Virus record (IMG/VR): IMGVR_UViG_3300029319_009270
Coordinates: 1 to 64,000 of that record
Source: a virus
Direction: 5' to 3' (one strand)
Length of the DNA: 64,000 nucleotides
The stretch's first letter is position 1. Each line of letters opens with the position of its first letter. This document shows, in pieces, positions 429-60,929 of the stretch. The notes under the pieces are model-generated. The model ran no database searches, was not told the DNA's origin, and saw only the letters and a program-made list of their open reading frames with translations. The position numbers were made by a program, and so were the translations under genes.

Positions 429-1538
429 CTAGTATCCTAATTTCGCCATATTAACTAAGCCTAAAAGATAATTTACATCACCTGGGTCTGCTTCGTCATA
501 TTCATTATTTTTTAACGCTAATTGTAAATCTTCAAGAATCGGTAATACGCCTCGCGAATCTTTAAAACCTCTTTTTGCACCAGATAACTCATTCAGCAAT
601 AACAGCAACGTGGTATCTGGTTTAGGCAACCAGATTGCATCTTTATACATAACTAATTCTTCTAATGCTCTGCTAATCTCATCAGAATTTGCAACTTCAG
701 CTATTAGCTTTCTCAATTGTCTTTTTGTTATTTTCATTTTGCCTTCTTTTATCATCGACATGTCTTGCTTAGGATTATGCTTCTGAATAGTTGTAGTGAA
801 TATATCGTACATCGGTTGCATCGCTTTGTCGTAAATGTGTTGAGCAATTGCAGGACCAAAATTAATGCGCTCTTCATAGCTTCTTCTCTTGAATAGATTA
901 TAAGCTTTCTTAAGTGTTGCAACACGTTGTTTGTCACTCGATTGAGCAGCTTTAAATTTTTCGTAAATCAGTCCGCGGACTTCGTCCATGATAGAGTTAA
1001 CTATGTCAATGTGAAGAGCAGGTGTGTCTACTGCGATATCAATGTTAAAATTAGCGTCCTTGGGCATTTTGTCGTACCAGTTTGGATCTCCATTTAAATA
1101 TAACTGAAAACCTCCTGGTCCTTCTGGATACTTATAACCAGCTTTTAAAATATCAGCAAGGTCAATTGCAAAAGCTTCTCGACGTCTAGGGTTGAAATAG
1201 CGATCAACTGCTGCATCAATTATCTGATCAATTTCCGGATCATTAATTAAATCCAAACCTGCGTCGTACATTCTCATCTGCTTGCTTAGAGTATCCGCGC
1301 TGAAACGTCCTGAACTGGGGAAACCTAAAGTGTCGGCTATGTTGTCTGCTTGTGCCGACGTCTCCAGATCATCTGATCCCGCTAAACCAAAGAGTTTTTC
1401 TTTGTTTACATCTGATAGGTCAAAATCAAAGTCTCGTGGATCTTCAAGCGGTTCTTCTATAGGAGCAACATAGCCAGGACTTCGTTTTATAACTGAAGAT
1501 TCTAATAATTTTCTTAATTGTCTTCTTGTTAATTTCAT
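429..1538 (-). CDS. double capsid-targeting-helix protein (possible polyprotein)
   Basis: 369 residues. The N-terminus MKLTRRQLRKLLESS is the array's shared helix, and a second complete copy, MKITKRQLRKLIAEV, starts at residue 268. The first part (16-260) is paralogous to the partial downstream gene; the 85 residues after the second copy are unrelated to it. The internal ATG at 737 is preceded by AAGG at short spacing, so it may also be an internal translation start. Either the protein is a fusion of two capsid-targeted proteins with two protease sites, or it makes two products. Function unknown. It overlaps the upstream gene by 4 bases, suggesting translational coupling. Confidence 0.8.
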   Translation of the reverse strand: MKLTRRQLRKLLESSVIKRSPGYVAPIEEPLEDPRDFDFDLSDVNKEKLFGLAGSDDLETSAQADNIADTLGFPSSGRFSADTLSKQMRMYDAGLDLINDPEIDQIIDAAVDRYFNPRRREAFAIDLADILKAGYKYPEGPGGFQLYLNGDPNWYDKMPKDANFNIDIAVDTPALHIDIVNSIMDEVRGLIYEKFKAAQSSDKQRVATLKKAYNLFKRRSYEERINFGPAIAQHIYDKAMQPMYDIFTTTIQKHNPKQDMSMIKEGKMKITKRQLRKLIAEVANSDEISRALEELVMYKDAIWLPKPDTTLLLLLNELSGAKRGFKDSRGVLPILEDLQLALKNNEYDEADPGDVNYLLGLVNMAKLGY

Positions 1539-2053
1539 ATTTCATCGCCGGGATGACGTGCTTGCAAGCCAGGATAATTATTCCAAACATGGTCGTACAT
1601 ATCTACACCATATATTTCGTATGGCTCTACATTTAAAATGTATTGTAATAGTGGCTCTCTTATTTCATTCGGATTTAATGGGTCATAAGGCGGATACGCA
1701 CTGTAGTACAAAATTGTCATTTGCTTAGAGAGTTCCTCATCAGTTATCGGACCCATCGTATCGCCCGGGTCGTCTCGATCAATGTCTAAGCCTAAGTCTC
1801 TGGCTTGCATTATCAAGCTCATAAAATAAGGAATAGCTCGATCCAGTGCCTCTATCATTGACGCCTTAGTAGTGCCACCATAAAACTTTTGAAGAAGATT
1901 ACCATTTTCATTCTTATAAATTTTAATATAGCCTACATCACCGCCACTTGAGTCTCCATGATCGACTGGCGGAAAAGTACCCCCGAGCGATCTGTCACCG
2001 CCCATATAGAATTCACGAATTAGCTTTCTCAACTGGGCACTTGTTAATTTCAT
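1535..2053 (-). CDS. capsid-targeting-helix protein
   Basis: 172 residues starting MKLTSAQLRKLIREF, with I-R-E matching the prohead-protease form. A short central stretch, DEELSKQMTILYY, resembles TLSKQMRMYDA of the 369-residue neighbour, suggesting distant homology within the array. The rest is acidic and rich in Asp, Pro and Tyr, with no catalytic motif or membrane segment. The stop is separated by a single base from the start of the preceding gene's product, and it overlaps the next gene by 4 bases, so the array is probably one operon. Likely an internal virion protein by analogy; function unknown. Confidence 0.75.
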   Translation of the reverse strand: MKLTSAQLRKLIREFYMGGDRSLGGTFPPVDHGDSSGGDVGYIKIYKNENGNLLQKFYGGTTKASMIEALDRAIPYFMSLIMQARDLGLDIDRDDPGDTMGPITDEELSKQMTILYYSAYPPYDPLNPNEIREPLLQYILNVEPYEIYGVDMYDHVWNNYPGLQARHPGDEI

Positions 2054-2054
2054 A

Positions 2055-2810
2055 TCAAACTACCATGTCCGGATCAAGCGTGTAGCCGTTGCGTTCTAAT
2101 CCTATTACGATTATCTTTTTGTTCGGATCCTCGACGCCTTCTGGTGATCTGGCACCTTGATCTTTAAAATATGCTGCGACGGCAGCTGTTTTATTAGGTA
2201 GGTGAATCATCCCATTCTCCAAAGCCTCAGTATAAAACACTGTTGCTGATTTCGACAGATATATTATCGCGTGCAACAGTGCTCTTTCGATCAAATAATA
2301 TTGATTTTTCCTTCCATGTACCTCTTGCATTAATGCATCTAAGTCTTTGACAATTTCAGAAATACTGTTTTCGTTTAACCCAGCTATAGAATTTCCTGCC
2401 ATGACAGAGTCTTCGCCGCGCCAATTTTTTCCGTATCTAGGTGTTGCAATTTGAAGGCCATCGCCCCTGCCTACTGTTATAAATATGTCTTGATCTATTA
2501 CATTCTCCAGTGCTTCATTATGGCCATTTTCACTTAACACATCCGCTACCTTGTCCTTATTCAAATTAACGGGTGTTTTCTGAAATATTTTCAATGCGTT
2601 ATCATAAGCATCAAGATACGTATCAGTAGTGCCTTCTGGGTCTAGCATAGAATCGAGGAGCATATAGTAAGTCGACATGTCGTCAGGATCTTTAAACATT
2701 TCGAGTGTTTCTAGTTGATCAGGTGACAGCCTACTTAAATCTAGACGTGCTCTTGGATCTTCCATTGATTCTCTAATTAATTTTGTCAATTGCCGTCTTG
2801 TTATTTTCAC
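2055..2810 (-). CDS. capsid-targeting-helix protein (GTG start)
   Basis: An upstream ATG at 2828 is in frame, but AAGGAG lies 6 bases before a GTG at 2810, and starting there gives MKITRRQLTKLIRESM, exactly the array motif. I therefore choose 2810 (251 residues). The segment LDLSRLSPDQLETLEMF followed by YYMLLDSMLD parallels IASLSNEQQEMLYGI and FFSLLDTLTLD in the gene at 3680-4345, and C-terminal helices also align, so these two are paralogs. Predicted internal head protein; no enzyme motif seen. Confidence 0.75.
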   Translation of the reverse strand: MKITRRQLTKLIRESMEDPRARLDLSRLSPDQLETLEMFKDPDDMSTYYMLLDSMLDPEGTTDTYLDAYDNALKIFQKTPVNLNKDKVADVLSENGHNEALENVIDQDIFITVGRGDGLQIATPRYGKNWRGEDSVMAGNSIAGLNENSISEIVKDLDALMQEVHGRKNQYYLIERALLHAIIYLSKSATVFYTEALENGMIHLPNKTAAVAAYFKDQGARSPEGVEDPNKKIIVIGLERNGYTLDPDMVV

Positions 2811-2829
2811 AAGAAACTCCTTGCTCATT

Positions 2830-3612
2830 TTACGCGAGATCGTTCATGATTTCTACATACATGTGTTGAATATACTTACCTAACCCTTCCCTCGCATTAT
2901 CTTCAATGCCTTGAAGATTGGCTAAATTTGTCAAGGACCACTCCATATCTTCAATCAATCCATCCATAAATCTATTGTTGGTGATCAGTGATTCCTTGTT
3001 GTCACGGTAGGCAGCAAGGTTCTGTAATGTTGCTTTGAACTTTAAAAGATCTTCACCAGCTGAACTTAAGAATTCATCGCCATCTTCATCATACTCCACA
3101 TATCTATAGGGATCTGGAACGTGCACAAATTCTGTTCCTCTTCCTCTTAGTATTGCATCAAGCAGACTCTGTGGTGTATGTGATTTACCCATCGCTTCTG
3201 CCACTAGTGAACGCAGATTGCTTCTAGTAATAATGCTTTCATTAGTAAGATTTTCATCTCCGCTAACAGGCATCTCGCTAAAACCCCAGCTTTCTTCTAA
3301 CTCTTGCTTAAGTGACTGCAATCTTTCAATTTCTTCAAGAGTTTTTAAATAAGTCTCGAAAGCTTCTGCTTCTACAAGTCGACCTTCCTCTTCCTCTTCA
3401 TTTCTGATATCGTGTTCATATCGACCATATGTCATTGGTTCAAAGTCTTCAATCCCTATTCCACTGGACGGATCTCCAAAATCTGAACCTGCTAATGATC
3501 GAACTTCGCCAGGAGACTTGTATTCCTTGTCGTATCTGTCACGCATCGGATCTCGCTTGTGAGCCATTTCTTTTAGAACTAGATGTGTTAATTGTTTTTT
3601 TGTTATTTTCAT
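2830..3612 (-). CDS. capsid-targeting-helix protein with second internal copy
   Basis: 260 residues. Starts MKITKKQLTHLVLKEM; L-K-E fits the protease form. A second, degenerate copy, IITRSNLRSLVAEAM, lies at residues 127-141 and has no ATG of its own, so it is part of the same polypeptide. Between them is a charged, Glu-rich segment; after the second copy comes a different, mostly helical domain of about 120 residues. This repeats the two-module layout of the genes at 429-1538 and 38728-39447. AAGGTGAAACA precedes the start, and it is the first gene of its block, after a 67-base AT-rich gap. Confidence 0.75.
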   Translation of the reverse strand: MKITKKQLTHLVLKEMAHKRDPMRDRYDKEYKSPGEVRSLAGSDFGDPSSGIGIEDFEPMTYGRYEHDIRNEEEEEGRLVEAEAFETYLKTLEEIERLQSLKQELEESWGFSEMPVSGDENLTNESIITRSNLRSLVAEAMGKSHTPQSLLDAILRGRGTEFVHVPDPYRYVEYDEDGDEFLSSAGEDLLKFKATLQNLAAYRDNKESLITNNRFMDGLIEDMEWSLTNLANLQGIEDNAREGLGKYIQHMYVEIMNDLA

Positions 3613-3679
3613 TGTTTCACCTTAAAGTATCTGTAATATATAATTATCTAAATAGTAAATATATTCTAATAAATTACCT

Positions 3680-4345
3680 TTAACTAGTTTTTAATTCTAC
3701 GTAGTAATTTGGGTTGTAATCACTGTATTCCCTTACATATTCTAATATTTTACGTTCTATCTCAATTGTGCTCTTATTAGAATATTCAGCCAGTTTATTC
3801 ATTATGTCTTCAAGTTCTTCTTGGTCCGGCCCCATAGTGCTAAAAGGTCCTCTTCGGCCGGTTACAGTGATAGGACGACGTGCTCTTAGCGAGTAAATAG
3901 ACAACAACTGCGGATTGTCAAGGGCGTCAATCTGGTTTGCCTGTATCTTATCATAAAGAGCATTATGATCTTCTCTAGATATGTTATCATCTATCTTCAA
4001 AAACAATACAATTCCTTGCTCTGCTAAGAGAGTTGTGATTAAGACATCATACATAAAAACGTCTTCTTTCTTAAGCATGCTCATACCAGGTATAGAATTC
4101 TCAAAACCAGCGGGTGACATGAAATATTCATAAGAATCAAAACTGTCATCATCTAACGTTAACGTGTCTAGTAACGAGAAAAACTGGGGAATATCACCTG
4201 ACGCTCTAATTCCATACAACATCTCTTGCTGTTCGTTACTAAGGGAAGCTATTCGCGCATCGATATCTTTAGACAAACTATCACCTACTTGGTCTTCAAT
4301 GGCTTCTCTAATCAATCTTCTTAATTGCTGGCTCTCTATTTTCAT
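3680..4345 (-). CDS. capsid-targeting-helix protein
   Basis: 221 residues opening MKIESQQLRRLIREAI. Paralogous to the gene at 2055-2810: both have a short helix-rich domain centred on a Gln-Leu-(Glu/Met)-x-Leu segment, followed by (F/Y)xxLLDxxLD and similar C-terminal helices with ITV and IERxxLxxxxxY. No catalytic or membrane motif. It starts 2 bases after the stop of the preceding gene. Predicted internal virion protein. Confidence 0.75.
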   Translation of the reverse strand: MKIESQQLRRLIREAIEDQVGDSLSKDIDARIASLSNEQQEMLYGIRASGDIPQFFSLLDTLTLDDDSFDSYEYFMSPAGFENSIPGMSMLKKEDVFMYDVLITTLLAEQGIVLFLKIDDNISREDHNALYDKIQANQIDALDNPQLLSIYSLRARRPITVTGRRGPFSTMGPDQEELEDIMNKLAEYSNKSTIEIERKILEYVREYSDYNPNYYVELKTS

Positions 4346-4347
4346 AT

Positions 4348-4968
4348 TTAATTGTTTCCAAATAAATTTTCAATTTCATCAGAAAGATCTCCAAAGTCCG
4401 GACCTAGCATATTTTTAATCTGCACTAATTTTAACAGATACAGACCAATAAGCCACTCCTCTAAGACATAACCCATACCTCCGGAATGTTCCCCTGCCAA
4501 AGCAGAAGAATATGACATTCCTAATCCGCCCTCAGCTGTCTGGTATATTTCCTCACCTTGCATACCTTCATTGCTTATTAGATTGACAATCTCTCCGCTA
4601 CTCATTCCTAAAGAAAGGGACGGATAATTTGGTAACTGATCTAATAATGCAGGGAAAAATGACATACACGGCTTCTCTTTTGTCCCACCGTACATAGAAT
4701 TGTCAGCGATTGCATATATCAAATTCTGTATGTCACCACCTTCTCCCCGGTGTCTTGCTACAAAAGGACCAAGCACAGCATCAACTGCTGAATGGCTTGA
4801 GGCAAAGATATTGAAAATATCTAAATCTGCGGCAAAAGCAAGCTCTTGTGCTTGTATCAAACCTTCAATTCCGGATGCCATCAACCCGGCGATTTTTTGC
4901 TCAGCGGTTCTAGGTTCATCAATAGCCTCAGCAATTATCTGCCTTAATTGTTTTTTTGTTATTTTCAT
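4348..4968 (-). CDS. capsid-targeting-helix protein, Ala/Gly-rich
   Basis: 206 residues opening MKITKKQLRQIIAEAI, with I-A-E then Ala, a textbook match to the T4 gp21 site form. The body is hydrophobic and rich in Ala, Gly, Ser and Met, unlike its acidic neighbours, with several potential amphipathic helices (residues about 25-60 and 150-195). That composition would suit a protein that contacts membrane or coats other proteins, but this is speculation. It overlaps the preceding gene by 4 bases (ATGA). Confidence 0.75.
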   Translation of the reverse strand: MKITKKQLRQIIAEAIDEPRTAEQKIAGLMASGIEGLIQAQELAFAADLDIFNIFASSHSAVDAVLGPFVARHRGEGGDIQNLIYAIADNSMYGGTKEKPCMSFFPALLDQLPNYPSLSLGMSSGEIVNLISNEGMQGEEIYQTAEGGLGMSYSSALAGEHSGGMGYVLEEWLIGLYLLKLVQIKNMLGPDFGDLSDEIENLFGNN

Positions 4969-5417
4969 TTTTGCCTCATCATCGCGATTACATTTTGCAC
5001 CTGGTTTTGCATCGCAGTAGCATTTTCTAAACTATCAAGTGGTAGCGGTGTAACGTTTTGGTTTAGTAAATTTAAGAAGCGTATACCTTCTGCCTCTTTT
5101 GCAATAATCAAAGACGGAGGATTAACTAAAATCGCTTCGCCATCAGGCAAGATCATGTAAAAATCGATAAACTTTTTTAATCCACTATACCCTCTGGGTG
5201 TCTTATAGGGCACACCTTTGGTCATAAAAAAGTTACCCACCCTATGTTTGTCTTTTTTAATTGTTGCACTTGTTTCTTGTCCTGTAGCGAGAGCTTGCAT
5301 TGATGGTGGTAAAGATGCCACATCCTCTTCGTACTGTTCATCAGAAACAGTCTTAACCCTAAACTCGTGTGCAGCTTCTGCGATTAATTGTCTTAATTGT
5401 CTTCTTGTTATTTTCAT
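4965..5417 (-). CDS. capsid-targeting-helix protein
   Basis: 150 residues from the ATG at 5417, chosen over an in-frame TTG two codons upstream because AGAGGG lies about 7 bases before the ATG and the product then begins MKITRRQLRQLIAEAA. After the helix comes a small alpha/beta-looking domain (residues 50-130) containing VGNFFMTKGVPYKT and MILPDGEAILVNPPSL. It is the first gene of the array in transcription order. No function recognised; inferred head protein. Confidence 0.75.
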   Translation of the reverse strand: MKITRRQLRQLIAEAAHEFRVKTVSDEQYEEDVASLPPSMQALATGQETSATIKKDKHRVGNFFMTKGVPYKTPRGYSGLKKFIDFYMILPDGEAILVNPPSLIIAKEAEGIRFLNLLNQNVTPLPLDSLENATAMQNQVQNVIAMMRQK

Positions 5418-6465: not shown

Positions 6466-8430
6466 ATGCCAAGAATAAGAAATATGGGGACAGCAACCAT
6501 GAAATTCGGCGAAGGAATCGTCGTGTCAGGAAGTGCTGCGAACAAGAACAATACATCTTCTGATTTCACACTAATCGTCTCGGGCAGTTCTCTCTTAGAG
6601 GACGACTTAAGACTTAGAGACACGTTTGGCAGATTATATTTTGGCCAGACAAACAACGACATCTACCTGCGGACCACCGACGGTGACACGCTTGGCATTA
6701 ATGCACCCGCGACAGCATGGTCAATTGGTGATAGCAGTGGAAACACAAAGGATTCCGATCAGATTAGAATAAACAAAGGCGGGCAAGAAATATTTAAAAT
6801 TGGAAAAGACGGATTTGAGTGGAATAGGGTTGGGCTTATAGTTGGTACGACAGGAAGCTTTAATGTTAACGGTCTCTCAAAATTTAAAAAGGGTCTTGTT
6901 GCAACAGGAAGTGCCGGTGAAATGTCTTCTGCAGATTCAGAGTATGCAGCATTTCATTCAAGCGGTTCAATAATGCTTTCATCAGAATCTGACACTACGG
7001 GCATGGATATTGAAATTCAAACAAAAAGACCTAGACTTGTTCTAAAAAGTCATGCAGGCAGTTCGTACAATTCAGCAGTTGTTTTTGACAAGTTCAATGA
7101 TTCTGGTGACGGTAGTATATCAGCTGTTGCTTCTGGCATGACGTTAAGTCAAATTGATGCTAACGGTTTTGACGGTTCAGCGTTAAGAAATGCTACAAGT
7201 ATAAAATCAGTAGTCGATGGGACACCAGGTAGTGGTGACATGCCCGGACGTCTAGAATTTAGAACTTCACCTGACGGATCTGCATCTGTTGTTACGAGAA
7301 TGACAATTAAGAATGATGGAAAAGTTGGGATTGGAACTACTGATCCGGACTATGAACTGGATGTTGCGGGTGATATTGGGCTAGCTGAATACATTTATCA
7401 TAGAAATGATGATAACACTTATATAAGATTTCAAGATGATGATATCAATCTGCAAGTTGGTGGCAGATCTATGATCAAAATGAGTGAAGGTTCAATAGAT
7501 CAGGTTTTAATAATGTCTGGCGGATCCGCAGCTAGTCCCGATGTTAAGACTTCTACAGACACTAACTTTTTTGTATCAGGATCTATCGATTCAATAGATT
7601 CATCTACTCAAGGCACATCTGTTTTTGGTGGTGATGTTGTCATTAGTGGGAGCACAAAAATAAAAGATGTGCTACGAATCAGTGAATACATTACACATGA
7701 AACTGACACGAACACTTACATTAGATTTAACGGTGGTGACACTATTCAAATGTATGCTGGTGGGATAGACTTTATACAATTAAGAGAGCACAGTGAGGAT
7801 CTCTTGATGTTAAACCCTAGTTCTAGAGAGATGGATCTACACTTTTTTCATGATGACACAAGTAACAACGCGCGTGTATTCTTGCTAAGTGAAGGAGCTA
7901 GCTCAACCCCTACAAACGCGACAGATCTTAGTTTTTTCGTTTCGGGATCAATTGGTTCAAGGGGTGGGTCTGCAAAGGGAACAGCAGTATTTGATGGTGA
8001 TGTTGTAATTTCAGGAAGTCTTTACACAAAACAACGTCATGTTAACAGCGCAAAATTTAGCAGCACAGATAATTCACAACGATACGTCCGATGGGATGCA
8101 GCAGGTAGTAATGGTTCTCCAGGTGTAAATAATAAGTTTATAGCTCCGGCTGATGGGCGTCTTTTATTTGTTACAGTACGTTGTACTTCAGCTGCTAACG
8201 GCACTAATGTCGCATTTCATAAAGCATCAGATGGAACTGCTAATTTAAACACAACTGCAATAGAAACAGTAGGCGTTGATATTGATTCAAGTAACACTTC
8301 TTTTCAAGTACAATTCACGTCAACATCTAATTTTAGTGCCGGTGATATTTTAGGAATATCTATAAATCCAACCAGCACACCTAATGATGTCAACATAACT
8401 TGCGTTTGGGAACTAGACTTTGTTAGTTAA
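6466..8430 (+). CDS. tail fibre or spike-like virion protein
   Basis: 654 residues on the plus strand, with GGAGAAGTT before the ATG. The sequence is rich in Ser, Gly, Asp and beta-strand repeats. VGIGTTDPDYELDVAGD near residues 285-303 is the motif common in phage tail-fibre and spike proteins, often near an intramolecular chaperone. Two internal repeats run about 306-400 and 405-520, each with NTYIRF, then FFVSGSI and GTxVFxGDVVISGS. The last 100 residues look like a compact beta-sandwich and could bind the receptor. It is convergent with the metalloprotease gene, the two stop codons overlapping. Confidence 0.7.
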   Translation: MPRIRNMGTATMKFGEGIVVSGSAANKNNTSSDFTLIVSGSSLLEDDLRLRDTFGRLYFGQTNNDIYLRTTDGDTLGINAPATAWSIGDSSGNTKDSDQIRINKGGQEIFKIGKDGFEWNRVGLIVGTTGSFNVNGLSKFKKGLVATGSAGEMSSADSEYAAFHSSGSIMLSSESDTTGMDIEIQTKRPRLVLKSHAGSSYNSAVVFDKFNDSGDGSISAVASGMTLSQIDANGFDGSALRNATSIKSVVDGTPGSGDMPGRLEFRTSPDGSASVVTRMTIKNDGKVGIGTTDPDYELDVAGDIGLAEYIYHRNDDNTYIRFQDDDINLQVGGRSMIKMSEGSIDQVLIMSGGSAASPDVKTSTDTNFFVSGSIDSIDSSTQGTSVFGGDVVISGSTKIKDVLRISEYITHETDTNTYIRFNGGDTIQMYAGGIDFIQLREHSEDLLMLNPSSREMDLHFFHDDTSNNARVFLLSEGASSTPTNATDLSFFVSGSIGSRGGSAKGTAVFDGDVVISGSLYTKQRHVNSAKFSSTDNSQRYVRWDAAGSNGSPGVNNKFIAPADGRLLFVTVRCTSAANGTNVAFHKASDGTANLNTTAIETVGVDIDSSNTSFQVQFTSTSNFSAGDILGISINPTSTPNDVNITCVWELDFVS

Positions 8431-8945
8431 GGTAGCCAAAATTCCCTTCCCATCTTATGATAGAGGGGATGCATGATATGACCCGGTTCATCAATGTGGG
8501 TAAACCCTAGGGCATGCCCTAATTCATGCTCGTTGATTAAATCTAAATTAAACGAACCTGATTGATAATAAATGATTGCGCCTTTCATCTCGAAATATCT
8601 AGAATATCTTTTGGTGCTAGCAATTGTATTAGCAGGTAGAGAACGAGTTCGCCTCAATATTATGAAACCTTCAAGCCAGCTGTTATCACAAACAGAATTT
8701 GGCGGATTATGCTCATAAAAACCTATTGGGTAACCGTTGTCTTCCCAATAATTTATAGCTCTTTTAATTTGATATTCATTAAAGTCAGGGCCATAACAAT
8801 TAATAATCGCCGGTGGGTGCTTCCACGTATAGGGCTCAAACATTGAAGCTTCATATCGATACTTCATTGCCAGTCCTAAAAGAAAACCTATTATTAAACT
8901 AGCTAAAAGTATAAGAAGTACTCGCGAGACTTTCACGTCCCGCAT
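8427..8945 (-). CDS. membrane-anchored matrixin-like zinc metalloprotease
   Basis: About 172 residues. A hydrophobic segment near the N-terminus (about 8-27) is probably a signal anchor. The zinc motif HELGHALGFTH, 11 residues, matches metzincin HExxHxxGxxH, and IMHP eight residues later is the Met-turn, so this is a matrixin-type peptidase. In such enzymes the Glu is the catalytic base. There is no obvious propeptide. The start is uncertain: a GTG at 8951 and an ATG at 8945 are both in frame, overlapping the end of the lipoprotein gene. Likely exported; possible roles are envelope protein cleavage or lysis. A second member lies at 59454-59900. Confidence 0.75.
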   Translation of the reverse strand: MRDVKVSRVLLILLASLIIGFLLGLAMKYRYEASMFEPYTWKHPPAIINCYGPDFNEYQIKRAINYWEDNGYPIGFYEHNPPNSVCDNSWLEGFIILRRTRSLPANTIASTKRYSRYFEMKGAIIYYQSGSFNLDLINEHELGHALGFTHIDEPGHIMHPLYHKMGREFWLP

Positions 8946-10899: not shown

Positions 10900-11604
10900 A
10901 TGGAAAAGAAAATCTATTTATATGCAGACAATATTGGATCTGTTGAATATGTAAGTCACATGGGTAAAGATATTACCATCGTCAATAGTGCAAGAGTTTC
11001 GTTTGGAAAGCATAAGGAGAGTATGGATGAAAAAGACAGAAAACTTATTAAATACCTCATCAAACATAGACACACGTCCACGCTGGAACACAATCTTGTT
11101 ACATATCGTTTTGTGGTACCTTTGTTTGTGCGTAGTCAGCACCACCGTCATAGAACTTGGTCTTATAATGAAATTAGTCGTAGATATACTGATGAAAATT
11201 TACGATTTTATGAGCCAGTAAGTTTTAGAACACAACACAAATCAAATCGACAAGCAAGTAATTTAGATAAAATTAATCCTGTCATATACCCAGACTGGGA
11301 TGATCCAGAAAGCGGTTACAAAGCAGATCAAATTATACAAATGCATCACAAAACATCTGTCACGTTATACAATGATTTGATGAAACAAGGCGTTTGTAGG
11401 GAACAAGCGCGTGGAGTTTTACCTCAAAATCTATACACAGAATATTATGGGACCGTCAATCTTAACAACTTGCTTAAATTTATTGACTTAAGAACCCATG
11501 AGGGTGCACAGTGGGAAATACAAAAAGTTGCAGAAGCTTGCTTAGAAATAGCTACTGACTTATGGCCTGAAACTGTTAATGCATATAAATTAATTAGACA
11601 ATAA
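10900..11604 (+). CDS. thyX: flavin-dependent thymidylate synthase ThyX
   Basis: 234 residues from the ATG at 10900, preceded by GAGGTGTTT; an upstream in-frame ATG at 10831 gives an unlikely leader. The ThyX signature RHRTWSYNEISRRY lies at 83-96, including the substrate-binding RHR and the conserved Ser and Tyr. The C-terminal half carries CREQARGVLPQNLYTEYYGT and RTHEGAQWEI, also typical. The enzyme makes dTMP from dUMP using methylene-tetrahydrofolate, FAD and NADPH. One of only two sizable plus-strand genes here; it converges on the next gene with an 11-base overlap. It should supply dTMP for the AT-rich genome together with the dCMP deaminase. Confidence 0.93.
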   Translation: MEKKIYLYADNIGSVEYVSHMGKDITIVNSARVSFGKHKESMDEKDRKLIKYLIKHRHTSTLEHNLVTYRFVVPLFVRSQHHRHRTWSYNEISRRYTDENLRFYEPVSFRTQHKSNRQASNLDKINPVIYPDWDDPESGYKADQIIQMHHKTSVTLYNDLMKQGVCREQARGVLPQNLYTEYYGTVNLNNLLKFIDLRTHEGAQWEIQKVAEACLEIATDLWPETVNAYKLIRQ

Positions 11605-12856
11605 TTAATCTTTCTATTAAAGCCTTCAATTGTCTTAACGTAATACTTACGATTCCTTCGTTAACTGATTCTGCCCTGGGTTTTGCTCTCCGAGCTCTAC
11701 CAATGATCTGATTTGCCATAGCAAAAGCACCGGTTATTTTATATATCTTACCGCCCTTTTCAAAAACAACGCCTTCAAGAGACGATGCTACATTTTCTAT
11801 ATTGCCAAGTTTTGCTAACTGCCTATCAACGAGCTTGCCCATTTTTTCATCACCTGATTCTGCTAATGATTCTAGATATGAAATACTTTCTTCTAACTCT
11901 TCTCGTATGCTCTGAACAGCAGCATCATGATCGACAACAAAAAAGCTCTTAATACCTCTAAGCACTTCTATCGCAAAATCGTTAATAATGTTTTCAAGAG
12001 GTCTCAGAACTACACCAATTACTTTTTTAGCGTTTACCTTTGTGCAGTATTTTGATATCTTTTTAGACATTTCTTTTGTCTTTCCGTATTCTTTTTTAAT
12101 ATCCCTCAATTCAAGTCCGCCGGGTTCCTTAAAAACATTCCTTATTATTTCATCGCATGCATTAGCTGGGATATCTTCTGACAGCATTAAATTTTTATAA
12201 TATATTTTGCATAGACTCTTAATTGTGCCGTCCATACCCACTGGTTCTGCCAGTTTTTGTATTTTACTAACCACTGCTTGGTGTGCTTTTCCATCCGCGA
12301 TATTATTGAGAGGAATAACTTGGGGCCCATATACGCTCCAAGCTTCTCCGTCAATTTCAACTTGAGCACTGTCCAAAGCAGATCGCAGACGCTCGAAAGA
12401 CTCAGAGGTTTCACCTCCGTCAATTGATATTAAGTTATGAAGCACAACGTACGATGCACCATAAATTATAATATTAGGGTTGCCTGGATACATTATCTCC
12501 ATGTTAACGTAGCTTTTTCCGCCATCAAATATATCAATGACATCTTCCTGATTAAGGGAATTAATTGCTGCACCAATGGCTCTAAATCCTTTCATAAAAG
12601 CATCCTCAGCAGGATGTCCTTTCCACTTCGCCGCATAATCACTAGTCGTCATGCCGCCTTTTTTAATATCTGTTGGATTACGTGCAGTTCTTATTTCTCC
12701 TAAAGAATTAACAGTTAAAAATAGGTTTTGCCCGTCTACCTTTTCAACAACTTCAATGTCTGCTGACGCAACTTGATTTAATATTGACACTAACTCATTA
12801 AAAGTTAAATCTAAATCTTCATGAAGATGTGCCATGTGTCCGGCCGCTCCTCCCAT
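11594..12856 (-). CDS. nucleotidyltransferase/ligase-like protein (DUF6267-like)
   Basis: 420 residues, with GGAG 7 bases before the ATG. Residues 8-50 (HLHEDLDLTF...VVEKVDGQNLFLTV) contain a K-x-D-G-x-N motif resembling motif I of the ATP-dependent ligase/nucleotidyltransferase superfamily. The C-terminal EGVVFEKGGKIYKITGAFAMANQ resembles motifs IV-V. The overall pattern recalls a cyanophage protein family (DUF6267) of unknown function. A helical region (about 250-350) separates the two parts. The last residues, SITLRQLKALIERLI, look like the capsid-targeting helix but at the C-terminus. Role unproven: nucleic acid end repair or a virion enzyme. Confidence 0.6.
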   Translation of the reverse strand: MGGAAGHMAHLHEDLDLTFNELVSILNQVASADIEVVEKVDGQNLFLTVNSLGEIRTARNPTDIKKGGMTTSDYAAKWKGHPAEDAFMKGFRAIGAAINSLNQEDVIDIFDGGKSYVNMEIMYPGNPNIIIYGASYVVLHNLISIDGGETSESFERLRSALDSAQVEIDGEAWSVYGPQVIPLNNIADGKAHQAVVSKIQKLAEPVGMDGTIKSLCKIYYKNLMLSEDIPANACDEIIRNVFKEPGGLELRDIKKEYGKTKEMSKKISKYCTKVNAKKVIGVVLRPLENIINDFAIEVLRGIKSFFVVDHDAAVQSIREELEESISYLESLAESGDEKMGKLVDRQLAKLGNIENVASSLEGVVFEKGGKIYKITGAFAMANQIIGRARRAKPRAESVNEGIVSITLRQLKALIERLIIV

Positions 12857-13600: not shown

Positions 13601-13804
13601 TTATTCGTAAAGTGGAATATTATTGATAATACAGATAAGTAAGTCGCCCTCTTTACCCCATTTCCATGTGTCATTATTTGCTCTGTAAAATATTTTATTG
13701 CCTTGCAACTCTATAACTTTATCACCACGAGTGTTCCAACAATTATAACCATCTGTATGTAAATTGAAACATTCTGCGTACTTTTTAATATAACTTTTTT
13801 GCAT
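13601..13804 (-). CDS. small hypothetical protein
   Basis: 67 residues, with beta-strand-like alternation and several Trp and Asn, overlapping the preceding gene by 20 bases. No membrane segment or known motif. Confidence 0.45.
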   Translation of the reverse strand: MQKSYIKKYAECFNLHTDGYNCWNTRGDKVIELQGNKIFYRANNDTWKWGKEGDLLICIINNIPLYE

Positions 13805-14084
13805 TCTTTACTCGTTCCATAATTCTCTTATAGTATTCATCTGCATCATCATCTTCAAATGCTTTACTTATCTTAACGGGATTCTTGACAATCTCCTCCT
13901 TTTCCTCTTCTTCTGGATACTGATATTCAATTTCAGACTTACCAAGACCCATTAGAGGCTTTCTAGGCTTAATAACATGTCCTGCACCATGACCTTTGTG
14001 ACCACGAACACTCACAACATTTTTTGTTGTTGCCATGTCCATTTCTCTAATTAATTGTCTAAGCAGTTCTATTGTTTTTTTCAT
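13785..14084 (-). CDS. small protein with capsid-targeting-like N-terminus
   Basis: 99 residues opening MKKTIELLRQLIREM, a variant of the capsid-targeting helix ending in I-R-E. A His/Gly/Lys-rich stretch follows (RGHKGHGAGH at about 27-36), then an acidic middle and a basic C-terminus. AGAGGTATGTT precedes the ATG. A second ATG near residue 18 (MATTKNVV) would remove the helix; the upstream one is favoured by its ribosome binding site. Possibly another packaged protein. Confidence 0.55.
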   Translation of the reverse strand: MKKTIELLRQLIREMDMATTKNVVSVRGHKGHGAGHVIKPRKPLMGLGKSEIEYQYPEEEEKEEIVKNPVKISKAFEDDDADEYYKRIMERVKNAKKLY

Positions 14085-16670: not shown

Positions 16671-19121
16671 CTACTGTTTTTTCTTGGCAGAGTACAATAA
16701 ATTTTTAATTATATTTTCATAAGATGACTCAGACATTGAATCCAATTGCAACTGATTATCAAATAATGATCGCGTTGGTTGTGCTTGTGACAACACACCA
16801 GGTGCAACAACAGACTGCTGACTAGGGCCTCGCCCCTTCAAAGACCCTATTGTCTGGGCGAGCGAGCTGTTTAAAGCGACTAAGCTGTCATTTATTTTAT
16901 CAATAATAATCTTAAAAGAACTGTAACTGTCAACAATGCTTTCACTCGTTGTAGTCACAGCGTCCATCACACCCAATACATGTTGTAATACTGAATTTGT
17001 TTGAGTGTCGAGTTGTTGATAATATGTTTCAAGAGCAGACACAATCTTATCAAGTGCTGCCCCTCTTTCAATATCTGTCTTACTATCATCGTTAACTGTT
17101 TCAACTAAGGCAAGGAATTCTGTTGAATCTAATAAATTACTTAATTGCGTTGGATAAAACCTATCAAGAAGCAGTATTAACTCTTGTAATTTGTTTCTGT
17201 TGTCCTCATCTAATCTAGCTGTATCATAAATTTTCTGTAGTTCTGATTGATTTCGAGACAATCTATCTAATTCGGCTTTTACTTTATTTAATTCTGTCAG
17301 CAAGTCCTTTTCAATTAATCCACCTCCCGGAGAAGATGCAGCAGCTGAACTGGGCGTATACGTTGCTCCGGTTCGTAATTCAGGAGAATCTGGTGATATT
17401 CCTGCCAACAATATTACAACTTCGTAAGTATCATAAGCTCCACCATATTGTTGTTTGAAAACGTTGACTGAGTTTGGTTTTGCTACAGGTACCCCTGTCT
17501 GCATTGACAGCCCAACATATATATTTGCTCTCCTTGTGATCCCCGATAAATTTGTCTTCGTGCCCACCTGGGTGAGACTTTGGGGCTCTGTAGTTCCTGG
17601 ATTATTCAATCCTAACACTTCAAATCTCTTGCCTAAGAAGCATCGCATAGCTGCTGTAACATATTCGCCAATAGTACTTTTCGGATCTTTCCTGGGCAAC
17701 TTTGCAATTACAAGCTTTCCGGCGCTGGGGTATCTTGCATTGAGATCCAGACTATTGAGCCGAGCTGCTATTTGACCTTTTTGTGCATTAGTAATTGTTG
17801 CGGTATTATTATATATCGTTTTTAAAGAATTAGCTGTGGCGGGTGCAGTTGGACTTTCTGTGCCCATGGTTCCTAAATATTTTATTCGAAATGCTTTATA
17901 ACCGTCAACGCTAAATTCATACTTAAGATCATAAAAAGTTCCAGCGTCAGAAGTTTTTGTAAAAGAACCGTAACCCATTAATTCGTCAATATATTCTTCT
18001 AGCTTTTCCTTCTTTCGGACTGAGCTTGAGAATGCTCCGGTAAAATCACCAACTTTTTTCGGAGGCTTGGTGGTAAAAACTGTTTTAAAAAGAAAAGCTA
18101 AAGCATCTGATTTGTCATTGTCGTTTGCTATTGATAGTCCCCTAAAATTTAAATCATTAGCAATGTCTGTATTTGTAACTTTAAAGTTAGCTGGTAATTC
18201 ATCTTTAAAGTCATCAAACAACAACTTAAGTGTGCTGCCGTTAAATACATTACGTGAAAAGTTAACAATTCCCAAAGAACTAGCAAACGATTCTGACTTT
18301 TTTACAGACACGTCATAAGGTGAAGGTCTTTCATAGTTATTTTGGTGTGATATTCTGATGTTATGATTTTGAGGAACTACATATTGCATCAGGATAGGTG
18401 TCGTTCTTGCTAACACTGCTTCAGGAGCGGTATTTGGAAATTCTAATTCTAACGCTTTTCTGACTAAAGATGAATAACGTTGATCAAGAATATTGGCTGT
18501 ATTTGTACCTGACCCCTCAACAAACATTGGTTTAAAAGCAGCGACCCCACATTTAAGTAGTAGATCATCATAGTTTGCTAAAATAGCACCATTATTCTCA
18601 AGGTGTACAGCAATCGCCTTTGCCATTTCGACAAGGTTGTCTTGCTTAGGTTGATTTCCATCTAGAGGATCTTTGTTTTTAACCAGGGTAGCTTTTGCGC
18701 TTACCATTGTCGAACCAAACTTATAGATTCTATTGCTATTATCAAGACTATCTGTGCCGGCAGAGAAGATGTCAGCCCAAACAAAGTTATTGCCGCCTAA
18801 GGCTCCGTTGTTCCCAGTGTTCAAATTGTCGACTAAACCTTGAAACGGTCCGCGTGCGTTTAGAACGTCTATACCTAAACCCTCTAATTGTTGCCCAAAA
18901 CTAGTGCCTTCTCCTTTAAGTAATTTCAACATAGAGTCAACATCATCGGGATTGCTAAAATAAAAAACCCCTGGAGATGTCGAGGTAGCCTCATCGAGAT
19001 ATTTATTGCCCGAACCGCCAGGAACATTCTCTCGTGATATCTGGGGTTGAAGTGTTGGTTTATTGGTTTCCGCTAGTATTTTTTCTAAAATTGATACTAA
19101 AGTTTTTTCTTTTAAAATCAT
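16671..19121 (-). CDS. large virion-protein candidate with capsid-targeting-like helix
   Basis: 816 residues. The N-terminus MILKEKTLVSILEKILAETN ends in L-A-E before Thr, which fits the protease-cleaved capsid-targeting form though divergent from the 1-5 kb array. The middle is Asn/Ser/Thr-rich with many strands; residues about 585-760 are long coiled coils with Gln, Ser and Asp. No enzymatic motif found. Followed by a coiled-coil membrane protein. Best guess: internal head or tail structural protein. Confidence 0.6.
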   Translation of the reverse strand: MILKEKTLVSILEKILAETNKPTLQPQISRENVPGGSGNKYLDEATSTSPGVFYFSNPDDVDSMLKLLKGEGTSFGQQLEGLGIDVLNARGPFQGLVDNLNTGNNGALGGNNFVWADIFSAGTDSLDNSNRIYKFGSTMVSAKATLVKNKDPLDGNQPKQDNLVEMAKAIAVHLENNGAILANYDDLLLKCGVAAFKPMFVEGSGTNTANILDQRYSSLVRKALELEFPNTAPEAVLARTTPILMQYVVPQNHNIRISHQNNYERPSPYDVSVKKSESFASSLGIVNFSRNVFNGSTLKLLFDDFKDELPANFKVTNTDIANDLNFRGLSIANDNDKSDALAFLFKTVFTTKPPKKVGDFTGAFSSSVRKKEKLEEYIDELMGYGSFTKTSDAGTFYDLKYEFSVDGYKAFRIKYLGTMGTESPTAPATANSLKTIYNNTATITNAQKGQIAARLNSLDLNARYPSAGKLVIAKLPRKDPKSTIGEYVTAAMRCFLGKRFEVLGLNNPGTTEPQSLTQVGTKTNLSGITRRANIYVGLSMQTGVPVAKPNSVNVFKQQYGGAYDTYEVVILLAGISPDSPELRTGATYTPSSAAASSPGGGLIEKDLLTELNKVKAELDRLSRNQSELQKIYDTARLDEDNRNKLQELILLLDRFYPTQLSNLLDSTEFLALVETVNDDSKTDIERGAALDKIVSALETYYQQLDTQTNSVLQHVLGVMDAVTTTSESIVDSYSSFKIIIDKINDSLVALNSSLAQTIGSLKGRGPSQQSVVAPGVLSQAQPTRSLFDNQLQLDSMSESSYENIIKNLLYSAKKKQ

Positions 19122-19700: not shown

Positions 19701-19940
19701 TTAACCATTGCTGTCTAAAAGCACTTCTCTAATTATCTTCCTTATGTGAGACTCGCTTAAAGTCGCATGAGGAACATCGTCTGCTAACCCCATAGACTCA
19801 AGCCAATTAGCTATCTGGACGTTAACAGGGGTAGGATCATTCCAACTCCCAACACCCTCTGGCCAGCCGCCGTGTGATGTTGGCTTATCAAGATGAAGAT
19901 CCTTGATTAATTTAGATTTTGCTTTTTTCTTTTTGGACAT
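19701..19940 (-). CDS. small protein with C-terminal targeting-like helix
   Basis: 79 residues from MSKKKKAKSK (ATG at 19940). The middle LIKDLHLDKPTSHGGWPEG looks conserved. The C-terminus LSESHIRKIIREVLLD resembles the capsid-targeting helix (I-R-E after a basic amphipathic turn), but at the end of the protein. A minus-strand TGATAATTATATC lies 14 bases upstream of the ATG, like the candidate promoter motif elsewhere. Confidence 0.55.
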   Translation of the reverse strand: MSKKKKAKSKLIKDLHLDKPTSHGGWPEGVGSWNDPTPVNVQIANWLESMGLADDVPHATLSESHIRKIIREVLLDSNG

Positions 19941-19976
19941 AATAACTCTCGATATAATTATCAAGAAAACAGTGTT

Positions 19977-38727: not shown

Positions 38728-39447
38728 TTAATAACCATCATCTTGCGAAATTATTTCATCATAAAGGTCGTATAATCTGTCGGGAATATCAATTTCACTA
38801 TAATATTTTCTAATGATATCTTCAGCAGCTTTTTGATCAACAATAACTAAATCTGCATACATTGTCATAGGTCCGGGAACATTCTCATACATTGCAACTA
38901 CAATTCCGTCTTTATTAACAAAAGCGTCATCAGATTCAATATAGTTTAAATAACCAGAGTCACTATCCGCTATATCTTCTAACACGTAAACTGTGTTATG
39001 TGCCAAAAGAGTATCAAGAATAGCTTCATCAGAAACATTAGCAGAAGGCGGATCTCGGTCTGATTCGTGTGGAGTCATAGCATCATAACTGGCTTGTGCT
39101 CTACTAAAAGCGGCATTTCGCCTACTATGATACATTTCTTTAATTAGTTTTCTTAACTGTGTTCTTGTGATTTTCATAAGATCGCTAGGTGTTCGTCTTA
39201 TGCGTGGACGAGGTCTATTGGCTCTTTGTTTGACATCACGATCTACCCGATCTCGCCAAGCATCATCAGGGCTAACGTATTCATAATCCGGAGGAGCTAA
39301 TTCAGGATCGCCCAGCAAACCTTCGTACCCGCCTGGAGCACTTATTTCCTCCTCGCCAAACTCATAAGGAAGATCATGATTAGTGTATATGTCTTTAGGC
39401 ATCTCTTTCAAGATTATCTTTCTAAGCAACTTCCTATTAAGCTTCAT
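38728..39447 (-). CDS. double capsid-targeting-helix protein
   Basis: 239 residues with MKLNRKLLRKIILKEM at the start and MKITRTQLRKLIKEM beginning at residue 91. The first piece (17-90) is acidic then Arg-rich; the second (106-239) is acidic and helical. No ribosome binding site precedes the internal ATG, so two protease sites in one polypeptide is the better reading. It lies inside the lysis-like cluster, away from the main array. Confidence 0.75.
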   Translation of the reverse strand: MKLNRKLLRKIILKEMPKDIYTNHDLPYEFGEEEISAPGGYEGLLGDPELAPPDYEYVSPDDAWRDRVDRDVKQRANRPRPRIRRTPSDLMKITRTQLRKLIKEMYHSRRNAAFSRAQASYDAMTPHESDRDPPSANVSDEAILDTLLAHNTVYVLEDIADSDSGYLNYIESDDAFVNKDGIVVAMYENVPGPMTMYADLVIVDQKAAEDIIRKYYSEIDIPDRLYDLYDEIISQDDGY

Positions 39448-56866: not shown

Positions 56867-58399
56867 TTAATCTTCTGTATACAAATAACCAAAGTATAAA
56901 GCTTGTTTTAAAAGATCAAATATCCCAGGTGGTAAATGATCTACGAAATAAAACAATGATCCTTTATACTCTCCTACAAAAGCTTTTTCTGGGCTTGGTG
57001 GTATACTGGGTGGGACAGCATCCCTTTCCAACGGATAATCGTGCTCCACAACTCCGAAGAATGGGATTAGTGTATCCTCGACTGGCGAATCTGCTTTCTC
57101 TCCGCCGTATGCGGTCATGTCAATCCAATACATAAATCTATCAACATCGTCTAACCACGGAGCAAAATCTACTGAAACTTGCCATAAAAAGTTTTTCTCA
57201 CTTTTTTCATTTTTAAAAAGTTCAGGATTTATTTTTCTGTATATCACAGGTGCGCCGTCTAAGTATTTTTTTATTAAATTATTCTGAGATAACATAATAA
57301 CTTCGCCTTGAGGACCGTAGTAAGGCTTTTCATAGCTACCTTCATTTTCTTCTACTCTGACGTTGCTTTTTTTATTTACATCTATTACGTCTAGTGCTCT
57401 TCCTCGGTCCTTTAAGTCTTTCATTATCTTTTTAATTTGTTCTGATCCAAAAAACTCATACCCAGGATACATGGCGGGTATCACCTTGAATTTAGTTAAA
57501 TTTTTGAATAAGTGTCCTGGGCCAACCATCATAGTTCGACCTATCATTTCTTTTTCACCGGTCAGCGTCTTTATCACTAGATCCTCTTTGCTCTCGCCTC
57601 GCATACTGGCTAAATCACCAGTGATATCTTTGTTTTCTAAATCAACAACAGGAACATTAATGTTAATTAGGGTATTGGCAATATCACCTACTATTGTCTG
57701 AATTGAATTCCCTTCTCTGTCGGCACCAAGTTTATTGATATCTTTTAACAGCCAACTTGTATCAATAATTACTTTTTTGACTTTTGGATTGATCATGATA
57801 AACTCATTGGATGAAAGCCTGTCGGATGGCAAGCCATACGTGTCAGGGCCTAGTATCATATATTTAATGTAGTCAGCTGGATCATCGCTTATCCCGCCCT
57901 GTAACTTGCCAGGCATTTTGGTTTGAAATATTCCACCCCTCTCAGTTTCTGCGTCTCTATCAAATGCCAAAGCAACAGGTCCATCTAAGACTAAACCAAT
58001 CTTTCCGATCAATGTTGATCCTTTTTGTGCTTGAAAATTCATATAACCGACTGATGATACTGCACCAGATATTTTTAGCTGTGACTTGTTAGACCATTTC
58101 TTAAAATCATTTAATAGCGTTACGACACTGCCTTCGTAAAGATTGAACCAATGAATGATTTCAAGATTGTTTGAATTCAAAAAAGAACGATCAGCACATG
58201 TATCGAAAGCTTTATAGTACGCAGTCTGTTCTTCTTGACCTAAGTTTTGAAATTGTTTAAAGTGGCCACTGACACAATCATAAGATGGTTCAACAGTAAC
58301 ACTTGAGTTAGTTGAATTAACAACCTCAATATTTTCTTCATCTTGTTCTCTTAAAACATCTCTAATTATTTTTCGAACAGTCGTTTTGTTTATAAACAT
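56867..58399 (-). CDS. large capsid-targeting-helix protein
   Basis: 510 residues. MFINKTTVRKIIRDVLREQ ends L-R-E then Gln, a targeting-type N-terminus. The body has ISGAVSSVGYMN, LVLDGPVALAFDRDAETE and RLSSNEFIMINPKVKKVII, whose strand pattern faintly suggests an ADP-ribosyltransferase-like fold as in T4 Alt, but no full R-S-E triad can be assigned. The shared element AACATAATTATTGTG lies upstream (58411-58425). Possibly an enzyme injected with the DNA. Confidence 0.6.
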   Translation of the reverse strand: MFINKTTVRKIIRDVLREQDEENIEVVNSTNSSVTVEPSYDCVSGHFKQFQNLGQEEQTAYYKAFDTCADRSFLNSNNLEIIHWFNLYEGSVVTLLNDFKKWSNKSQLKISGAVSSVGYMNFQAQKGSTLIGKIGLVLDGPVALAFDRDAETERGGIFQTKMPGKLQGGISDDPADYIKYMILGPDTYGLPSDRLSSNEFIMINPKVKKVIIDTSWLLKDINKLGADREGNSIQTIVGDIANTLININVPVVDLENKDITGDLASMRGESKEDLVIKTLTGEKEMIGRTMMVGPGHLFKNLTKFKVIPAMYPGYEFFGSEQIKKIMKDLKDRGRALDVIDVNKKSNVRVEENEGSYEKPYYGPQGEVIMLSQNNLIKKYLDGAPVIYRKINPELFKNEKSEKNFLWQVSVDFAPWLDDVDRFMYWIDMTAYGGEKADSPVEDTLIPFFGVVEHDYPLERDAVPPSIPPSPEKAFVGEYKGSLFYFVDHLPPGIFDLLKQALYFGYLYTED

Positions 58400-59963: not shown

Positions 59964-60929
59964 TTAATATCTTCCATGATATCTTCGTCGATACAAACTA
60001 CCTCGACTAAGACCTTCATTAATATCTGTATCGGGTCCTACCATACCACTGGGTGTCTCCGGTTGTCCAGAGGGTGGTACATCTCGAGATGTAACAGACT
60101 CAGGGTTTGACTTGAATTCAATATCATCATCTTTTGTACTAGCAACTTTTGCAGAACCTGACGCGGATGGAATCAATTTACTAGCATAAGTTATAGCTCC
60201 AGCGTCTAACAACATCTGAAGAACCCCGTCGTGAAGCATAGAAGCAGCCGTAGTTGTACCGCATTCTGAACTGAAGACGCGCAGATATCCTCTCTGTTGA
60301 CTGACAAAACTACCTTCGCGCTGGGACGCTCGAACTCTTTCGCCTATCGAAACCAATGCATTTTTATCACCATCTAAAGTGGCAATTGCTGATGCTGCTA
60401 AAACCTCTTTATATTCACCTGCAGCTTCAGGATAAACATCACAATAAAGTTCTGAATCCTCGATAAATTCTAAGATTGCATTTATTGGCGGTTCAGGTTC
60501 AGGTTCTTTAACTTGTGGTTTGAAAGTTTTTCCAACGGACTTACTTACGGGTCCTGAAATTATTCTATAACGATCACCCACTTTTGCATAAGTGTACGGG
60601 TCTCCTCTTCCACTGATACCATAATCAGATCCCGCCTTTCCGAATTCAGGTTTAACGCCTATCTCAGGTGCCCAATATAAATCCCAGTCTAACCAAACGA
60701 AATAATCGCCTTTTGGAACAGGGATATTCATTCTTTTAAGAATTTCAGCAGCTTCGGAAGCGGGAACTTTTACTGCTTTTGGATTGTCTGCTGCTTTCGC
60801 TTTGTCTAAGATGTCTCCTTCTCGAGGATCTAAGTTTTTACCCTTAGGATCAGCGTCAGGTATAGCATGTTCTTCTTCATTTAATAGTGATTCTATCAAT
60901 AAATTCAAATTTCTTTTAGTGATTCTCAT
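59964..60929 (-). CDS. capsid-targeting-helix protein
   Basis: 321 residues. MRITKRNLNLLIESL, with L-I-E then Ser, is the array motif, far from the 1-5 kb cluster. Next come Asp/Pro/Lys-rich linker, a compact domain with YFVWLDWDLYWAPEIG and GDRYRIISGP, and helical parts; the C-terminus (SRGSLYRRRYHGRY) is Arg/Tyr-rich. Predicted head protein. Ended by the hairpin at 59901. Confidence 0.7.
   Translation of the reverse strand: MRITKRNLNLLIESLLNEEEHAIPDADPKGKNLDPREGDILDKAKAADNPKAVKVPASEAAEILKRMNIPVPKGDYFVWLDWDLYWAPEIGVKPEFGKAGSDYGISGRGDPYTYAKVGDRYRIISGPVSKSVGKTFKPQVKEPEPEPPINAILEFIEDSELYCDVYPEAAGEYKEVLAASAIATLDGDKNALVSIGERVRASQREGSFVSQQRGYLRVFSSECGTTTAASMLHDGVLQMLLDAGAITYASKLIPSASGSAKVASTKDDDIEFKSNPESVTSRDVPPSGQPETPSGMVGPDTDINEGLSRGSLYRRRYHGRY

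Follow-up and report, generated by a model that had tools for sequence, protein, structure and literature searches.

The locus and its two C-terminally tagged genes

The window, that is, the whole stretch of DNA analysed here, comprised bases 1-64000 of the record of an uncultured virus, which has 90,544 bases in total. An ORF at 11594-12856 (-) encoded a ligase-like protein of 420 aa with the C-terminal end ...VNEGIVSITLRQLKALIERLIIV, and a small protein whose ORF ended at 19701 (-) had the C-terminal end ...HATLSESHIRKIIREVLLDSNG. The original prediction had named these two peptides, and both were found where it placed them. The ligase-like gene had AAGGAG, a good ribosome-binding site, upstream of its start, and its last codons and stop overlapped a convergent ThyX-like gene (by eye; 10900-11604, +) by 11 nt. 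For the 19701 protein, the ATG at 19940 was the better start, giving 79 aa, and was preferred to the TTG at 19964. Inspection by eye also pointed to a GroEL-like chaperonin (27896-29485, -), a sigma-factor-like protein (26222-26959, -), and HExxHxxGxxH metalloprotease-like proteins (8427-8867, -, and 59454-59900, -) in the window. The features that bear on the terminal peptide, hereafter the tag, are collected in Table 1.

Table 1. Coordinates of the tags and tag-associated genes in the window.
Feature	Position	Strand	Basis or gene
C-terminal tag helix of the ligase-like protein (residues 405-420, ITLRQLKALIERLIIV)	11597..11644	-	profile 17.3 bits; AF2 helix
Disordered linker from core to tag (residues 392-404)	11645..11683	-	pLDDT <50 at 395-404; varies among orthologues
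Ligase-like core (residues 1-391), KxDG at K39-G42	11684..12856	-	invariant residues; Foldseek; VIA-align
99-aa protein with weaker N-terminal tag MKKTIELLRQLIREM	13785..14084	-	same cassette in G001, G002
816-aa slot protein between the two C-tagged genes	16671..19121	-	helical-looking ends; middle unlike positional counterparts in G001/G002
Small C-tagged protein, DKPTSHGGWP...WLESMGL module	19701..19940	-	ORF and start choice
C-terminal tag of the 79-aa protein (LSESHIRKIIREVL, then LDSNG)	19704..19760	-	profile 26.0 bits; kept in orthologues
N-tag MKLTRRQLRKLLESSV	1491..1538	-	gene 429-1538
N-tag MKLTSAQLRKLIREFY	2006..2053	-	gene 1535-2053
N-tag MKITRRQLTKLIRESM	2763..2810	-	gene 2055-2810
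N-tag MKITKKQLTHLVLKEM	3565..3612	-	gene 2830-3612
N-tag MKIESQQLRRLIREAI	4298..4345	-	gene 3680-4345
N-tag MKITKKQLRQIIAEAI	4921..4968	-	gene 4348-4968
N-tag MKITRRQLRQLIAEAA	5370..5417	-	gene 4965-5417
N-tag MKLNRKLLRKIILKEM	39400..39447	-	gene 38728-39447
N-tag MFINKTTVRKIIRDVL	58352..58399	-	gene 56867-58399
N-tag MRITKRNLNLLIESLL	60882..60929	-	gene 59964-60929

The two C-tagged genes belonged to a cassette with the same order in the record of the window (G000) and in G001 and G002: a small C-tagged protein, a ~108-aa protein, a very large protein, a nuclease-like protein (by eye), and the ligase, with other small genes interspersed. The tag of the 19701 protein was kept in orthologues of 74, 85, and 287 aa; the longest of these, from G001, had ~200 extra residues, and its tag still stood at the extreme C-terminus. 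The large proteins (816, 913, and 934 aa) had unrelated middles, for which 140, 191, and 172 of 300 shuffles were as good. Some of the ends were related: 4 of 2,000 shuffles were as good for the last 40 residues of the window and G001 proteins and 24 of 2,000 for the first 30 residues of the G001 and G002 proteins; the remaining comparisons were weak or null (141 and 77 of 2,000 for the last 40 residues, 1,189 and 1,885 of 2,000 for the first 30). With this limited support, the large proteins could be interchangeable cargo between constant ends. The ends of the 816-aa protein did not score as the motif described below (type I tag), and the N-terminal tag of the 99-aa protein reached 12.6 bits with the seed profile and less than 13 bits with the final one. 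In addition, the DKPTSHGGWPEG module known from the 19701 protein formed the end of 404-aa proteins with HEYIHARQ in L130 and L131. This module may itself be a terminal signal.

Distribution of the motif at protein ends

The N-terminal tag was described by a 14-position profile with the consensus MK[IL][TS][RK]xQLRx[IL]IxE, which was trained on N-termini only and iterated over 17 records, namely the window's own and 16 chosen for the ligase gene, not for the tag. Among the 1,925 proteins scanned (each of at least 60 aa, threshold at least 14 bits), 110 N-terminal matches were obtained against 0.2 expected from local shuffles, a count that is partly circular; the C-terminal count is not. Internal matches numbered 9, against 0.45 in local shuffles. 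In the window's record, 11 genes had a start of the type MKITRRQLRKLIREA, and a run of seven such genes occupied 429-5417. The mutual alignment of the 48 tagged proteins of G001 and G002 was limited to MKITRxxLRxLIxE; a short terminal peptide was thus common to otherwise unrelated proteins, as is characteristic of T4-type capsid targeting sequences. Second, internal copies of the tag followed a Met in the products of 429-1538 (-) (from residue 268, KMKITKRQLRKLIAEV) and 38728-39447 (-) (from residue 91, LMKITRTQLRKLIKEM); such copies are possibly fused tagged genes or internal starts. A search with the consensus peptide gave no match among named phages, a result of little weight since the 21-aa query was near the limit of the tool. 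Neither this motif nor the RMQKLAGI/RWQKLAGI type considered below was found described in the available text of the literature searched; a 2006 paper on the Sargasso Sea (PMC1513258), which had come up in connection with N-terminal motifs, proved unrelated as far as its available text goes.

Both C-terminal tails scored on this N-terminus-trained profile (Table 1), and local shuffles of their last 40 residues did as well in 8 of 20,000 cases for the ligase tail and in none of 20,000 for the 19701-protein tail. Both tails have the same helix as the starts of many other proteins of this phage, and the "mirror-image placement" of the original prediction is therefore a fair description. The search near the C-termini of related genomes that it had proposed returned 6 of the 1,925 proteins at 14 bits or more, against 0.25 expected (the largest of 20 shuffles gave 1); the C-terminal placement is thus rare. 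These matches were not independent, because they represented two orthologous families, the ligase-like and the 19701 proteins, in G000, G001, and G002. A separate set of 184 loci (1,628 proteins) yielded seven C-terminal matches at 12 bits, against 0.4 expected; among them, L129 and L206 were the same two families in one further phage, fetched by homology, and those of L150 and L226 look, in our judgement, like real tags. So does a weaker one in L161 (10.7 bits), in a protein with a nucleotidyltransferase-like start by eye and no Pfam match. This product of L161:3251-3985 appeared by eye to be a stand-alone nucleotidyltransferase-like protein with its own C-tag-like end. The ends of L144, L162, L218, and L313 were not tag-like by eye, which left five of the nine listed proteins with at least 9 bits. 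The G012 10946 candidate was a conserved domain and its row was dropped from the C-tag count, and the G001 107704 match was weak (572 of 20,000 shuffles as good). A type I C-tag on the ligase was present in three of the six records with at least five N-tags and in none of the other 11, i.e., it is lineage-dependent.

The ligase-like enzyme and its tail

The original prediction described the product of 11594-12856 as enzyme-like, and this was borne out by an invariant KxDG motif and by matches to the RNA-ligase fold. The core was conserved in 19 sequences, with K39, D41, G42, E120, E361, and K373 invariant. The best Foldseek match of the core model was T4 RNA ligase 1 (T4 Rnl1; prob 0.99, overall TM ~0.2), and VIA-align gave Z values of 8.8-9.0 to RNA ligases, including the Naegleria RNA ligase (Z 9.0, 186 residues, rmsd 4.2). 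When the ligase-like protein was compared with the Pfam and PHROGs families, all matches were weak or below threshold. On the basis of sequence and model, the core is RNA-ligase-like, with the motif I lysine of KxDG and the ligase fold, and its ligation activity is predicted. The fold and the KxDG nucleotidyltransferase motif are shared with T4 RNA ligase 1 and the Naegleria enzyme at ~11-18% identity in structural alignments. Unlike these two enzymes, however, the window protein has an added tail, and its relatives are often fused to a cytidylyltransferase-like domain. This fusion was observed in L004, L008, L019, and other relatives, with an order that differed between phages; the domain was PF01467 in L004, the one relative tested.

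In the AF2 model of the window protein, the poorly modelled linker was followed by a helix at residues 407-419 (block pLDDT 59-71), and a helix was modelled at residues 404-422 of the G001 orthologue (pLDDT 70-81). In both models, the tag thus forms a helix of its own, set off from the core by a disordered linker. A helix in this position might instead belong to the enzyme itself, serving folding, dimerisation, or substrate binding, and merely resemble the N-terminal tags; indeed, most orthologues from other phages also have a helix-like end of another sequence, as in all ten records G006-G015 (IDLSLIDEVIELIMKRGI type). We consider this explanation unlikely, however, because the modelled helix is isolated from the core by the linker, the relatives in L205, L238, and the G004/G016 group have no tail beyond the core, a profile built from unrelated N-termini recognises the tail, and in these genomes the 19701 protein, which is unrelated to the ligase, is tagged as well.

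Most ligase relatives were without the tag, and many of them finished with a nucleotidyltransferase domain plus a different helix or basic tail. The proposal that all relatives carry the tag was rejected, since a conserved tail of another kind closes the long forms, and PKVKRAKRQRRR closes others; the long-form tail was common to no other protein end in the ten records scanned. A conserved basic tail of the form PKVKRAKRQRRR was observed in another large group of relatives, from L195, L196, L198, L199, L201, and L202, and the same group included L207, L210, L213, L215, and L221. Four distinct ligases among L185-L193 had a helix-like N-terminal extension of 26 aa, which ended in E before GG; it did not match the tag profile (scores -4.0 to 6.7) and is therefore a possible parallel only. 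Near the long-form ligase, a HELVHH metallopeptidase-like protein was noted at L072:16255-17373 (-), with homologues in nine other records; most members had an amphipathic-looking C-terminal helix of their own.

The prohead link and the proposed role of the tag

The original prediction regarded the C-terminal helices as cargo tags for the prohead. This link was supported indirectly, by the relatives of the window's record; however, that record is fragmentary and had no head module and no match to PF03420 (T4-type prohead protease) or PF07068 (capsid protein). Of the 12 records searched, the same four had both families, the close relatives G001 and G002 among them. An unbiased DNA scan with one tag pattern returned 36 contigs, and the reversed-pattern control returned four. 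The pattern lay near an N-terminus in 34 of the 36 and 72 aa from the end in two homologues; none had the tag at a C-terminus. PF03420 was present in 14 and PF07068 in 13 of these contigs. Among contigs of at least 20 kb, PF03420 was detected in 12 of 25 tag contigs versus 3 of 25 random-pattern contigs (Fisher one-sided 0.006), the latter being those of sufficient length among 58; at a length of at least 100 kb, the values were 7 of 8 versus 2 of 6 (0.06), with two of the seven, L145 and L157, apparently the same virus in the tag region. No N-tag was found in the 472 kb of random-pattern loci. Lineage confounds all of these results, this absence and the PF03420 enrichment included. Small genes shortly after the protease gene had tag-like N-termini in G001 (18.2 bits) and G002 (18.7 bits); their G005 counterpart had no profile match, and the gene directly after the protease reached only -0.2 to 9.5 bits in four records. 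The clustering of tagged genes after the capsid gene was weak, with 18 of 254, 15 of 153, and 41 of 324 rotations as good.

The composition of the tag also allows another reading. Amphipathic membrane-targeting helices are known at either protein end, as in MinD and FtsA, and the tag is a basic amphipathic helix (moments of 0.38-0.67 for five tags versus a background mean of 0.26). The tagged proteins include lysozyme-like, LysM-like, and YkuD-like (L,D-transpeptidase-like) ones, and the lysozyme-like and YkuD-like proteins could fit a role at the cell envelope. Targeting to a membrane or envelope is nevertheless improbable in view of the glutamate conserved at positions 12-13, the few bulky aromatics, the link to the T4-type protease, and the tag-like starts on head-module genes. 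Recruitment to another phage structure or a host partner (replication site, RNA polymerase, or chaperone) would suit the weak clustering near the capsid gene and the lack of a known function for most tagged proteins, but it has the lowest probability of the readings given the protease enrichment and the tag-free random-pattern loci, with the confounding by lineage noted above.

The tag is shared by both protein ends, has the architecture of a separate helix, persists at the extreme end of orthologues, and is statistically linked to the T4-type protease. The reading that we favour, with a probability of about 0.6, is that the helix is a portable capsid-targeting sequence that would carry the ligase-like enzyme and the 19701 protein into the head. 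Most likely, the tag would thereby load the enzyme into the head of a marine phage for delivery to the host. The tag, which mostly heads a protein and is sometimes joined to its C-terminus through a flexible linker, would attach to the scaffolding core or to the inner face of the shell during prohead formation and take the RNA-ligase-like enzyme and the small 19701 protein inside. Trimming at [LI]xE sites by the T4-type protease would then release the cargo from its tag, to be passed into the next cell along with the DNA, where the enzyme might serve, e.g., early repair of RNA cut by host defences. Evidence that weighs against this reading includes the lack of C-terminal placements in the unbiased scan, the missing protease and capsid matches in the window's record, the weak clustering after the capsid gene, and the many untagged ligase relatives.

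By analogy, the tag likely works like the T4 capsid targeting sequence (CTS) of IPI-IPIII and Alt, which is also a short terminal propeptide common to unrelated proteins. The T4 CTS ends in an [LI]xE site for gp21, and a T4-type protease and Gp23 were found in some relatives, among them G001 and G002. However, the tag is longer (~16 aa), has another sequence, and is found on up to dozens of genes per genome, also at C-termini; the tags of the ligase and the 19701 protein thus depart from the N-terminal placement of the T4 CTS, to which the 110 other tags conform. In T4 Alt, gp21 cleaves at ITE-6 and LTE-619 (PMC5694885; PMC9026906), and the second cut removes a C-terminal propeptide of 63 aa (PMC5694885). 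Like the C-tag, this is a C-terminal piece, in Alt that of an ejected head protein and preceded by an LxE site, but it is longer than the tag and has no type I motif by eye. The propeptide is a partial precedent, known from the available text as a cleaved piece and not as a targeting signal. The claim that the C-terminal placement would be new is therefore partly wrong, a cleaved C-terminal piece as such being known. All identified gp245 propeptides of SPN3US except the protease's own are N-terminal (PMC10052503), and in phage P1, for which no separate scaffold system is reported in the available text, the capsid targeting signal of DarB is also N-terminal and is sufficient to load a reporter (PMC9024508). 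The DarB signal is a terminal loading peptide like the tag and differs in placement from the C-tags. Since these signals are N-terminal as far as the cited accounts go, a tag that targets from the C-terminus would represent a novel variant. The encapsulation peptides of bacterial microcompartments are amphipathic helices of 15-20 aa that a linker joins to one or the other end of their cargo (PMC11157265), and the tag has the same form. The shell is different, however, and protease trimming does not appear in the available text of that account.

The glutamates of the tags were compared with these cleavage sites. All 110 N-tags ended in [LIVMF]xE, a count that is partly circular. C-tags in the 17 records had E at position 3 in 9 of 11 cases (9 of 10 without the dropped row) versus 6 of 108 N-tags, and this residue mostly gave [LIV]xE at the front of the tag, like ITE-6 and LTE-619 of Alt. 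A cut there would free the enzyme. The ligase tag of the window itself lacked E at position 3 and had just VNE a few residues upstream. In the N-tags of other phages, E occupied position 3 in 30 of 44, most of these loci having been fetched by that pattern. Because it is common there, the glutamate may mark the start of the helix and not a cut site, and a helix-start preference explains it equally well. A strict tie of the C-tags to this residue as a cut site was also weakened by the many ITE/ISE N-tags of the unbiased scan.

If the targeting reading is correct, the tag is a marker of virion cargo that can be read from sequence, and dozens of unknown proteins per uncultured phage could be called as head-carried. 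The role of the C-terminal propeptide of T4 Alt, a question raised in the available text of PMC5694885, would become testable, and enzymes harmed by an N-terminal tag could be given a C-terminal loading tag.

A second peptide was examined in the head modules, where the gene before the capsid gene (the scaffold by position) had RWxKLAGI-like C-terminal peptides. A scan for this type, in which 80 of at least 120 stretches were examined, gave 68 distinct matches. Of these, 58 lay within 15 aa of the C-terminus, mostly in proteins that were scaffold-like by eye, one was internal, and nine stood near the N-termini of other proteins as RMQKLAGI, followed by TE in several. From this placement, it seems that scaffold ends can be copied to serve as cargo tags. 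A broader reading, which we hold as tentative and rather doubtful, is that marine T4-type phages use a single head-loading code readable at either protein end, in which the protease site lies on the tag's inner side (the end of the N-tag, the front of the C-tag) and many unrelated, interchangeable enzymes, including an RNA-repair enzyme, are loaded per virion as a delivery kit; RMQKLAGI would be its second dialect, the scaffold's own C-terminal peptide moved to the N-terminus of cargo. One G003 protein combined an N-terminal type I tag with a C-terminal RWQKLAGI. The loci with RMQKLAGI or RWQKLAGI at scaffold-like C-termini and unrelated N-termini were L249-L328 and L082:4442-5965 (-).
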